In this document: positions 9,319 through 19,390 of the stretch, in pieces
Layout: every line of letters starts with the position of its first letter
How positions within the stretch are numbered: position 1 is the first letter of the stretch
Source: Streptomyces halobius
Lineage (GTDB): Bacteria > Actinomycetota > Actinomycetes > Streptomycetales > Streptomycetaceae
Direction of reading: 5' to 3'
Length of the DNA: 64,000 bases
NCBI RefSeq assembly: GCF_023277745.1
Contig: NZ_CP086322.1
Location: 620,001 to 684,000, forward strand
Translations under genes and position numbers: made by a program
Notes under the pieces: generated by a model
What the model was told of the DNA's origin: nothing
Seen by the model: only the letters and a program-made list of their open reading frames with translations
Database searches by the model: none

Positions 9319-9888
9319 CGGTGTCTCCTGGAAACCTCGGTGCGATCGAGTACGGCTGGCTGACCGCATCAGGTCACCCCGCCGGACGACGGCGGGCAAG
9401 CGGCCACGCCGTGAGGTCGCCCGGACGGAGTGCCGCGCGCGGTCGCCGGGTTCCCCGGAACCCGGCAATAGGGCCTGTCCGACGGGTCAGGGTCGGACCG
9501 GCCATAGGCCCTGTCGGCAAACTCCCGCCTCCCCCGCGGGGAACGACGGCAGTTCGACGACAGGGCCCGGCGCTCGCGGGCGACCGGCCCGGTCCGGTCG
9601 CCCGCGCACTCCTTTCGTACCTGATCCACCGGAGAGGCGCGACCGCTGTTACTCCGCCGGGGAAACCGTGGGGTCCGGTGGCAGCGTGCCCGTCGTCGAC
9701 GGGCCCGTTCGCCGGCAGCTCCCGGCCGGGGCGGTATTGCCGTGTCGGCGGCCCGGCGCAGGGGCAAAGGCGCCGCTCGGCCCCGGCCCTGGGCCCTTCG
9801 GCCCATGCGGGCCGCACGGCGTTCCGTGACGGTGGAAGCAGGGCACCGGGCGGGGAGCCGATCGGTGCACGCGGCGGAAGGAGTCGCC
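9319..9888. other. 570-bp divergent intergenic region
   Basis: No convincing gene. It holds the promoter side of the SSI inhibitor gene (left) and of the acyl-CoA ligase (right). A hairpin with a 7-bp GTCCGAC/GTCGGAC stem extended by four G-C pairs lies at 9472-9502, and a 15-bp palindrome (CCCGTCG-T-CGACGGG) near 9688. The DosR-like box at 9791-9804 lies close to the ligase. Long open frames across it have poor codon structure and no recognisable protein. Confidence 0.55.
9791..9804. promoter_or_regulatory. DosR/DevR-like box upstream of acyl-CoA ligase
   Basis: GGGCCCTTCGGCCC, 85 bp upstream of the ATG at 9889. It is one of six 14-bp sites in this window with the form GGG(A/C)C-N4-G(G/T)CCC; the mycobacterial DosR core is GGGACTWWAGTCCC, the same length with the same outer arms. 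Confidence 0.55.
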
Positions 9889-11817
9889 ATGACCTGGGAG
9901 ACGATCCGCAAGAGCACCGCGCCGCGCGTCGCACCGAATCTCGCCGACTACGACCGCGCCCGGCTGGGCTTCACCTGGGCCCAGGCCAGGGCCGCGCTCG
10001 CCGGGCTGCCCGGGGGTGGCGGGCTGAACATGGCGTACGAGGCCGTCGACCGGCATCTGGCGGCGGGGCAGGGCGGGCACGCGGCGCTGCGCTGTGTGGC
10101 CCGGGACGGTTCCGTCTCCACCGTCACCTACGCCGAGCTGGCCCGTCGTACCGCGCGCTTCGCGAACGTCCTGAACTCGCTCGGAATCGGCCATGGCGAC
10201 CGGGTGTTCACCCTGCTCGGCCGCGGCCCCGAGCTGTTCACGGCGGTACTCGGCACCCTGAAGAACACCAGCGTGGTCTGCCCGCTCTGCTCCGCGCTGG
10301 ACTCCGGCCAGGTCGCCCGGCAGCTGCGGACCGGAGCCGCGAAAGTGCTGGTGACCAGCGCGGAGCTGTACCGGCGCAACGTCGCGGGCCACCGGGACGC
10401 GCTGCCCGGCCTCGCCCATGTACTCATCGTCGGGCCGGGTGCCGAGGAGTTGCCGGGCACGCTCTCCTTCGACGCGCGGATGGCCGATGCCTCGGACCGC
10501 TTCATCACCCCGCCGACCGCTCCCGAGGACGCGGCGCTGCTGCACTTCACCAGCGGAACCAGCGGCCCGCCCAAGGGCGTCACGCATGTCCACGGGGCGG
10601 TCGTCGCCCATGACGCCACCGCGGCCACCGCCCTCGATCTGCACCCCGAGGACGTCTACTGGTGCACCACCGACCCCGGCTGGGTCACCGGGATGTCGTA
10701 CGGCGTCATCGCACCACTCGCCCGTGGTGTGACGGTCGTTGTCGAGGAAGGCGTCGAGGGGAACGACGTCGATGAAGGCGGGGTTGATCACGAGGAGGCC
10801 GATGAGGTCCGGCGCTGGTACCGGATCCTCGACGAGGAGCGGGTCAGCGTCTGGTACACGGTGCCGACCGTCCTGCGCAGGCTGATGCGCGCCGCCCCGC
10901 GGCAGGGCCCGTACGCACTGCCGGACGGCGACGAACTGCCGGGCGGCGAAGAACCGACGGCCGGCGAAGGTCTGGCGGGCTCCGGCGGGCTGTCGGATGC
11001 CCATGTCGCACCGGACGCCTACGATCTGTCCGCGCTGCGGTTCATCGCCTCGGCGGGCGAGCCGCTCAACCCCGACGTCGTGGTGTGGAGCCGGGACGTC
11101 CTCGGGCTGCCCGTGCACGACAACTGGTCGCAGACGGAGACCGGTTGCATCATGATCGCCAATCTCGCGTCCGCCGACATCCGCCCCGGCTCGATGGGGC
11201 GGCCGCTGCCCGGTGTCGAGGCGGCGGTCCTGGGACGCGGCGACGACGGGCGCGCGCGGCCCGCCGACGGTCGGGTGATGGTGCTGGAAAACCCGGACAC
11301 CGAAGGCGAGTTGGCTTTGCGTCGCGGCTGGCCGTCGATGTTCCGCGGCTATCTGCACGACGAGGAACGCTATGCGGCCGCGTTCGCCGACGGCTGGTAT
11401 CTGACCGGTGACCTCGTCCGGCGCGACAAGGACGGCTGGTACTGGTTCGTCGGGCGCGCCGAGGACGTCATCACGTCGGATGGCCACCTGATCGGCCCGT
11501 TCGAGGTGGAAAGCGCGCTGCTGGGGCACCCGTCCGTCGCCGAGGCCGGGGTGATCGGCCGCCCCGACCCGGTGACCGGAGAGAGCGTGAAGGCGTTTGT
11601 GTCGCTCGGTCCCGGCGTCGAGCCGACGCCGGCGCTGGAACGGGAGCTGCTGGCCTTCGCCCGCCGGAGGCTCGGTCCCGCGATGGCGCCCAGGGAGATC
11701 ACCTTCGAACCGCACCTGCCCAGGACCCGAAGCGGGAAGATTCTGCGGCGGCTGCTGCGCGCCCGTGAACTCGGCCAGCCCGCCGACGATCCGTCCGACC
11801 AGGAGGGATCCGGATGA
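9889..11817 (+). CDS. AMP-forming acetyl/acyl-CoA ligase (AcsA type)
   Basis: Adenylates a short carboxylate, probably acetate or propionate, and transfers it to CoA. The 642-residue product has the adenylate-forming core motifs: LHFTSGTSGPPKGVTHVHG (P-loop), RFIASAGEPLNP, NWSQTETGCIM, YLTGDLVRRDKDGWYWFVGRAEDVI, and the C-terminal catalytic Lys in PRTRSGKILRRLLRA, the usual site of regulatory acetylation. Compared with typical AcsA proteins it carries two acidic, low-complexity inserts at about residues 285-307 and 333-378. GGAAGGAG precedes the ATG at 9889 by 5 nt. The E2-like gene follows in the same direction. A DosR-like box upstream places it in the stress regulon. Confidence 0.88.
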   Translation: MTWETIRKSTAPRVAPNLADYDRARLGFTWAQARAALAGLPGGGGLNMAYEAVDRHLAAGQGGHAALRCVARDGSVSTVTYAELARRTARFANVLNSLGIGHGDRVFTLLGRGPELFTAVLGTLKNTSVVCPLCSALDSGQVARQLRTGAAKVLVTSAELYRRNVAGHRDALPGLAHVLIVGPGAEELPGTLSFDARMADASDRFITPPTAPEDAALLHFTSGTSGPPKGVTHVHGAVVAHDATAATALDLHPEDVYWCTTDPGWVTGMSYGVIAPLARGVTVVVEEGVEGNDVDEGGVDHEEADEVRRWYRILDEERVSVWYTVPTVLRRLMRAAPRQGPYALPDGDELPGGEEPTAGEGLAGSGGLSDAHVAPDAYDLSALRFIASAGEPLNPDVVVWSRDVLGLPVHDNWSQTETGCIMIANLASADIRPGSMGRPLPGVEAAVLGRGDDGRARPADGRVMVLENPDTEGELALRRGWPSMFRGYLHDEERYAAAFADGWYLTGDLVRRDKDGWYWFVGRAEDVITSDGHLIGPFEVESALLGHPSVAEAGVIGRPDPVTGESVKAFVSLGPGVEPTPALERELLAFARRRLGPAMAPREITFEPHLPRTRSGKILRRLLRARELGQPADDPSDQEGSG

Positions 11818-11979
11818 GTGAGCGCGGCGTGGGGGTCCCCCCGGCCGGAGGCCGGAGGAGAGTCGTCCAGAGGCGCGCGCCGAGCCGGGGGCGCCTCCCG
11901 GCCGAAGTCCCCCGGCTACCGCTGGGAGGTGCCCACAGGGGGCGCGAGACCGAGCGAAGCGAGGTTTCGGCGTGAGCGC
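11818..11979. repeat. Inserted palindromic repeat element between ligase and E2 genes
   Basis: About 150 bp of GC-rich palindromic sequence carrying TGGGGGTCCCCCCG and GCTACCGCTGGGAGGTGCCC. It is flanked by an 8-bp direct repeat, GTGAGCGC, at 11818-11825 and 11972-11979. The second copy supplies the GTG start of the E2-like gene, while the first overlaps the ligase stop. This looks like insertion into a formerly overlapping stop/start junction. Related cores occur near 27.8, 48.5 and 63.9 kb. Confidence 0.6.
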
Positions 11980-19302: not shown

Positions 19303-19316
19303 GGGCCATTGGTCCC
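19303..19316. promoter_or_regulatory. DosR/DevR-like box (GGGCCATTGGTCCC)
   Basis: 88 bp upstream of the leftward Usp start, in the divergent gap shared with nicotinate phosphoribosyltransferase. Its right arm GTCCC is the exact DosR arm. Confidence 0.58.
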
Positions 19317-19376
19317 TGCCGATGGCCGTGCGGGCCGGGCCGTGCCGGGCCTCGGCGCCCGGGTGGCCGTCGGACC

Positions 19377-19390
19377 GGGACCTTTGGCCC
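19377..19390. promoter_or_regulatory. DosR/DevR-like box (GGGACCTTTGGCCC)
   Basis: 86 bp upstream of the nicotinate phosphoribosyltransferase start. Left arm GGGAC and the A/T-containing centre match the DosR core best of the six boxes. Confidence 0.6.

Follow-up and report, generated by a model that had tools for sequence, protein, structure and literature searches.

Predicted OsdR/DevR-type operators at six promoters of a Streptomyces halobius stress-protein island without a local osdK-osdR pair

The 9.24 Mb chromosome of Streptomyces halobius (contig NZ_CP086322.1) carries, within the 64,000-nucleotide stretch analysed here (G000:C1:620001-684000, hereafter the window), an island of genes for universal stress proteins (Usp) and metabolic enzymes with OsdR/DevR-type 14-mers between them. 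The locus raises the question of whether these boxes are operators of a dormancy regulon, and of which regulator would act on them. The six boxes are very likely operators of a DevR/OsdR-type regulator at six promoters, and the OsdKR pair encoded at 8.48 Mb is the one most likely acting on them.

Boxes and promoter geometry

Direct sequence check located all six 14-bp sites of the original prediction, which had placed them 85-115 bp upstream of genes; the measured near-edge distances to the start codons agree with this range.

9791..9804, plus strand: box of the acetate-CoA ligase (ACS) promoter, 85 bp from the start at 9889 (+), predicted centre -42.5
14420..14433, minus strand: box of usp 14327, 93 bp from the start at 14327 (-), predicted centre -43.5
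14484..14497, plus strand: box of the PF08962-usp transcript, 114 bp from the start at 14611 (+), predicted centre -43.5
16839..16852, minus strand: box of usp 16733, 106 bp from the start at 16733 (-), predicted centre -43.5
19303..19316, minus strand: box of usp 19215, 88 bp from the start at 19215 (-), predicted centre -45.5
19377..19390, plus strand: box of the nicotinate phosphoribosyltransferase (NAPRTase) gene, 86 bp from the start at 19476 (+), predicted centre -43.5

Perfect matches to GGGMCNNNNGKCCC number 12 in the window, against a mean of 2.88 and a maximum of 7 in 100 shuffles. Seven of them fall in 9.6 kb of the island, where 0.24 are expected (Poisson P 7e-9, for a stretch picked by the finding itself). 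Two matches within or adjoining the island, at 8606 and 16341, the latter within a usp gene, lie outside the original list. An independent matrix, built solely from 25 published S. coelicolor OsdR sites and used with a cut-off of 9, ranks five of the six boxes 1, 2, 3, 6 and 7 among the window matches, and box 14420 has the top score of the window. This matrix is noisy at the GC content of the window: 15 matches score at least 9 (mean 7.5 and maximum 14 in 40 Markov runs), eight at least 11 (mean 2.65, maximum 5) and three at least 12 (mean 1.5, maximum 4).

Downstream of every box, in gene orientation, an A-N3-T element follows at an offset of 24, 25, 25, 25, 27 and 25 bases, respectively (6/6). 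If its A and T correspond to positions -11 and -7 of a -10 element, the predicted box centres are -42.5, -43.5 (four times) and -45.5, and the predicted leaders measure 49-77 nt.

9828..9833, plus strand: predicted -10 element of the ACS promoter, predicted +1 at 9840
14390..14395, minus strand: predicted -10 element of usp 14327, predicted +1 at 14383
14522..14527, plus strand: predicted -10 element of the PF08962 promoter, predicted +1 at 14534
16809..16814, minus strand: predicted -10 element of usp 16733, predicted +1 at 16802
19271..19276, minus strand: predicted -10 element of usp 19215, predicted +1 at 19264
19415..19420, plus strand: predicted -10 element of the NAPRTase promoter, predicted +1 at 19427

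The presence of A-N3-T at the window boxes is not independent evidence, because the element was first noticed on them. The spacing was tested on boxes of other species, taken from NAPRTase loci (the best 80 of 480 encoding a relative of the enzyme; 79 after exclusion of S. piniterrae), which gave 76 non-redundant boxes, each 60-140 bp upstream of a recognised gene. A-N3-T stands at offset 25 in 19/76 and at offsets 23-27 in 37/76, compared to a mean of 1.1 per offset on the mirror side (maximum 5) and at most 6 at other downstream offsets. With any open reading frame (ORF) as the target, it stands at offset 25 in 33/137, against a mean of 2.4 and a maximum of 9 elsewhere. Among the 37 aligned elements, position -8 is C in 26 and position -6 is G in 35; neither preference was selected for. 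The reversed-pattern control yielded only 13 boxes, none with A-N3-T at offset 25. As the species share descent, binomial values overstate the strength of this spacing. Neither 8606 nor 16341 has an A-N3-T at offsets 15 to 39 on either strand. In mycobacterial DevR promoters the site proximal to the transcription start point overlaps the -35 region (PMC3029386), and the common mycobacterial -10 is ANNNT (PMC6448022); the geometry of the window boxes agrees with this layout, in that the fixed spacing to A-N3-T is observed and the -35 overlap follows from the +1 sites predicted from sequence. Such a fixed spacing helps to separate likely targets from chance 14-mer matches.

The regulator pair and the distribution of boxes in the genome

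The genome encodes a DevR-type regulator together with a kinase of the haem-GAF type at 8.479 Mb, outside the island. The top PDB match of the response regulator is M. tuberculosis DevR (3c3w, E 8e-78); it possesses a NarL-type receiver and a GerE domain with EKTVKN, which we take to be the DNA-contacting motif of a DevR-type regulator. The adjoining kinase has a GAF-GAF-HisKA_3-HATPase architecture, with the haem GAF domains of DosT and DevS as top matches (E 2e-51). The histidine of its HHPPM motif, aligned with the DevS haem ligand (presumably His149, the position being counted on the alignment), is conserved, and this GAF-A histidine is predicted to ligate haem. Two perfect boxes lie near the pair, one beside osdR (8479146) and one at a PF08962 gene (G000:C1:8484533), the latter being the exact reverse complement of box 19377. 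A paralogue of OsdR at 5.041 Mb (G000:C1:5040993-5041625, 62% identical) brings the DevR-type regulators of at least 60% identity in this genome to two; no GAF-GAF kinase was seen beside it within a 3-kb locus. Of two further kinases, neither the one at 7.45 Mb (one GAF) nor that at 4.89 Mb (two GAF) has a perfect box in the surrounding 10 and 16 kb, and both were set aside.

The genome has 20 matches to the composite box-N26-30-STGGW, which is useful only for where they fall. They include the six window boxes and three remote promoters, namely those of the PF08962 gene at 8.484 Mb and of usp genes at 8.533 and 8.536 Mb; among the other 11, in 3-kb loci analysed by a GC-bias ORF caller, none stands beside a Usp or PF08962 match. 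At the three remote promoters, which had played no part in noticing the element, A-N3-T stands at offsets 26 (PF08962), 25 and 26 (usp, 8.533 and 8.536 Mb). With a KdpD-like 855-aa frame excluded, 23 domain matches resolve into 13 Usp genes: a perfect box stands directly upstream of five, and the sixth gene with a box, 14858, has it via the PF08962 gene ahead of it; two of the three PF08962 genes in the genome have a box.

The usp cluster at 8.53 Mb holds four perfect boxes. Two of these (L086:10859 and 10880, 8.536 Mb) lie 21 bp apart ahead of one usp gene in a tandem layout like that described for DevR, and only the nearer one has the usual -10 spacing. A high-scoring one-mismatch box (L086:13144) is close ahead of a gene that looks like DUF1918 from its translation.

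Among the 80 NAPRTase loci, 193 perfect boxes were counted: at 40-250 bp downstream, 94 have a gene similar to one of 23 reference proteins, 62 have unlabelled ORFs only, and 37 have none. NAPRTase itself has a perfect box in 12/80 loci, against 1.3 expected from the same loci; with only these 12, the idea that NAPRTase generally has a box throughout the genus was rejected. ACS-like genes alone have nine boxes upstream. Usp-like genes occur in 63/80 loci, OsdR-like genes (at least 50% identity) in 10/80 and OsdK-like genes (at least 45%) in 9/80.

Island genes and the counterpart in S. piniterrae

The gene content given by the original prediction holds by Pfam and NCBIfam: an acetate-CoA ligase, four Usp genes, a PF08962 gene (its DUF1876) and a nicotinate phosphoribosyltransferase gene, which cover the typical target families of the Usp, Rv1738/Rv2632c and pncB2 types.

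9889..11817, plus strand: acetate-CoA ligase (ACS), NCBIfam PRK04319 above cut-off
11972..13378, plus strand: 2-oxoacid dehydrogenase E2-type acyltransferase with lipoyl, E3-binding and catalytic domains, start uncertain
13434..14327, minus strand: universal stress protein, two Usp domains (Pfam)
14611..14856, plus strand: PF08962 protein, Rv2632c-like (Pfam)
14858..15751, plus strand: universal stress protein, two Usp domains (Pfam)
15798..16733, minus strand: universal stress protein, two Usp domains (Pfam)
17047..17152, minus strand: flavohaemoglobin gene relic, by alignment to the S. piniterrae gene adjoining osdK-osdR
17283..18179, plus strand: protein without a Pfam or NCBIfam match, bordering the lost segment
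18304..19215, minus strand: universal stress protein, two Usp domains (Pfam; ORF 18304-19251)
19476..20861, plus strand: nicotinate phosphoribosyltransferase (NAPRTase), NCBIfam PRK12484 above cut-off

The E2-type gene lies directly downstream of ACS, probably in one transcript with it, and no E1 or E3 gene was seen adjoining; the ACS-E2 unit is, to our knowledge, not known as a DosR target. No nitrate-reductase gene was found among the window ORFs searched with Pfam. A gene for a microbial-type poly-ADP-ribose glycohydrolase (21539-22531) adjoins the island and has no box.

Streptomyces piniterrae is the nearest relative found (NAPRTase 91% identical) and the sole close relative compared. Relatives of gene 17283-18179 occur in 8/100 other genomes of the genus at no more than 50% identity; this gene was thus rejected as an island marker, and no third close island was obtained. 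Boxes 16839, 19303 and 19377 are identical in S. piniterrae, and box 14484 differs in its free centre only, whereas boxes 14420 and 9791 do not fit the perfect pattern there, each owing to a single change. In the divergent box pairs, the spacer length differs between the two species by 45 bp for 14420/14484 and by 34 bp for 19303/19377. Each of these indels lies between the paired boxes, so that every box stays at nearly the same distance from its own -10 element. No PF08962 gene is present in the S. piniterrae island. Ahead of ACS, S. piniterrae has ~6 kb of additional genes (L195/L099) that the window lacks; they lie between the positions equivalent to 9722 and 9773 of the window and, by translation only, look like genes for a glycosidase, a sugar ABC transporter and a LacI-type regulator.

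In S. piniterrae, osdK, osdR and a flavohaemoglobin gene are flanked by a usp gene (that of box L099:3301) on one side and by the gene 17283 counterpart on the other. The flavohaemoglobin gene encodes globin-FAD-NAD domains and has a box at L099:7590. Compared to the 8.479 Mb pair of S. halobius, the products of this island pair are 66-68% (OsdR) and ~54% (OsdK) identical. S. piniterrae also encodes orthologues of the 8.479 Mb pair (96% and 88%) and of the 5.041 Mb regulator (96%), so that it has three DevR-type regulators of at least 60% identity against the two of S. halobius. The window island lacks such a local pair; a gap of ~430 bp takes the place of the osdK-osdR-flavohaemoglobin segment. 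Within it, a 106-bp relic (17047-17152) aligns inside the flavohaemoglobin gene at 73% nucleotide identity (E 3.6e-11) and, by tblastn, at 50% over 44 aa (E 3e-5). No orthologue of this gene was found in the S. halobius genome, only a 41% copy at 4.916 Mb, and a search of 16856-17282 showed no remnant of osdK or osdR.

Competing readings and known systems

Several results weigh against six functional operators under one regulator. Box 19377 matches the consensus upstream of its gene, as do the other five, and alone among the six scores below the matrix cut-off. The osdR box at 8479146 has no A-N3-T at the usual spacing, nor do 39/76 other-species boxes at offsets 23-27. Genome-wide enrichment of the bare motif was rejected: the 14-mer pattern is rarer than its reversed control (231 against 371), as are its narrower forms (82 against 119 and 32 against 37), and the composite shows no excess in total (20 against 18). 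Finally, 7/13 Usp genes lack a perfect box upstream, two of them having one-mismatch boxes. The specificity assumed by the original prediction stands in part: the bare 14-mer is common, whereas nine of the 20 places that combine a box with a -10-like element are usp, PF08962 or window promoters.

The frequency of the pattern in a GC-rich genome, mostly without clear promoter context, would suit chance palindromes or terminator-like repeats with no regulatory function. We consider this very improbable, since two box pairs lie between divergent genes, where terminators are not expected, and since the fixed spacing to A-N3-T and the conservation of the boxes across indels weigh against it. Binding by another DevR-type regulator, chiefly the 5.041 Mb paralogue, in response to a signal that is perhaps neither oxygen nor nitric oxide (NO), would be compatible with there being two such regulators and with the receiver and GerE domains that this paralogue keeps. 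It appears improbable as well, if less so, for boxes are concentrated near the 8.479 Mb pair and at 8.53 Mb, and the single box near the paralogue sits behind its stop codon, outside a promoter. The regulator at 8.48 Mb is preferred because the S. piniterrae-type island pair and flavohaemoglobin gene are missing from the window. How they came to be missing can be read in two ways. The simplest is a single deletion starting immediately past box 16839 and reaching into the flavohaemoglobin gene; as osdK, osdR and this gene are adjacent in S. piniterrae, one deletion accounts for all three absences, and osdK and osdR may have been lost in the same event. Alternatively, the island never had a regulator of its own, S. 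piniterrae gained osdK-osdR between the usp and flavohaemoglobin genes, and the window lineage lost only the latter; the relic attests the flavohaemoglobin gene only, and a single close relative was available for comparison. This insertion scenario seems rather doubtful to us, given that the deletion explains the three absences at once.

On the deletion reading, the local pair has probably been lost from the island, which would now be controlled in trans. The chances are even, in our view, that it represents an orphaned dormancy module: a self-contained unit of haem sensor kinase, DevR-type regulator, flavohaemoglobin, usp genes and enzymes of acetate and NAD metabolism that lost the first three, and whose promoters were kept in use because the paralogous OsdKR elsewhere recognises the same boxes. 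If so, this would be a natural case of regulon capture within one genome, for which S. piniterrae serves as the unreduced control. Two strains of which only one has the local sensor-regulator would open crosstalk between paralogous two-component systems of soil bacteria to direct testing.

Under the proposed mechanism, low oxygen or NO would lead the haem-GAF kinase OsdK to phosphorylate OsdR. OsdR~P would bind a box at about -43, overlapping the -35 region of one promoter in each case (ACS-E2, usp, PF08962-usp, usp, usp and NAPRTase), and bring RNA polymerase to promoters whose -10 (S-A-N-N-S-T) is weak. The Usp and PF08962 proteins, acetate activation and salvage of nicotinamide adenine dinucleotide (NAD) may then serve survival without growth. 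The dormancy regulon of the original prediction is supported by the match to OsdR sites, the cognate pair, the DevR-type geometry and the conservation of most of the boxes. Two corrections apply: unlike its S. piniterrae counterpart, the island lacks a regulator of its own, and there is no nitrate-reductase gene among the ORFs searched.

OsdR/OsdK were described as SCO0204/SCO0203 of S. coelicolor, with a regulon around SCO0167-SCO0219 and a site tested by gel shift (consensus AGGGCCGATCGGCCCT, sites at -80 to -102; PMC5069765). The present island shares with that regulon the AGGGCCGATCGGCCCT box, similar distances to the start codons, its richness in usp genes and a DevR/DosT-like pair in the genome. 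It differs in that no regulator and no nitrate-reductase gene are seen in the island, and in that ACS and NAPRTase carry boxes. The words 'nicotinate' and 'acyl-CoA' are absent from the main text of PMC5069765, so these two genes look like new predicted OsdR targets in Streptomyces. Among the top-ranked listings of the open-licence literature, we found no description of this island, of ACS or NAPRTase as OsdR targets, or of the -10 spacing in Streptomyces. In the nitrogen-oxide cycle of S. coelicolor, Fhb is reported to be under NsrR, and DevSR to act on narG2 (PMC4766573). The S. piniterrae island, by comparison, joins a DevR-type pair with a flavohaemoglobin gene, so that sensor and NO-removing enzyme adjoin, and in the window this gene is a relic.

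The boxes share their outer arms with those of the M. tuberculosis DosR/DevR regulon, and the overlap with the -35 region predicted here would be a further likeness (PMC3029386). The kinds of target are also common to both, namely usp, Rv1738-type and pncB2 genes (PMC9031469, PMC11203133), and the original prediction was right that pncB2 is a reported DosR regulon gene (PMC9031469). The differences lie in the GC-rich box centre and in the Streptomyces genes. The type of regulon is thus already known, and what is new are the predicted ACS and NAPRTase targets, the spacing rule and the proposed loss of the regulator. Altogether, the tested OsdR/DevR regulon would gain another Streptomyces island, whose predicted targets include acetate activation and NAD salvage; NAD salvage is common to the mycobacterial dormancy regulon as well.

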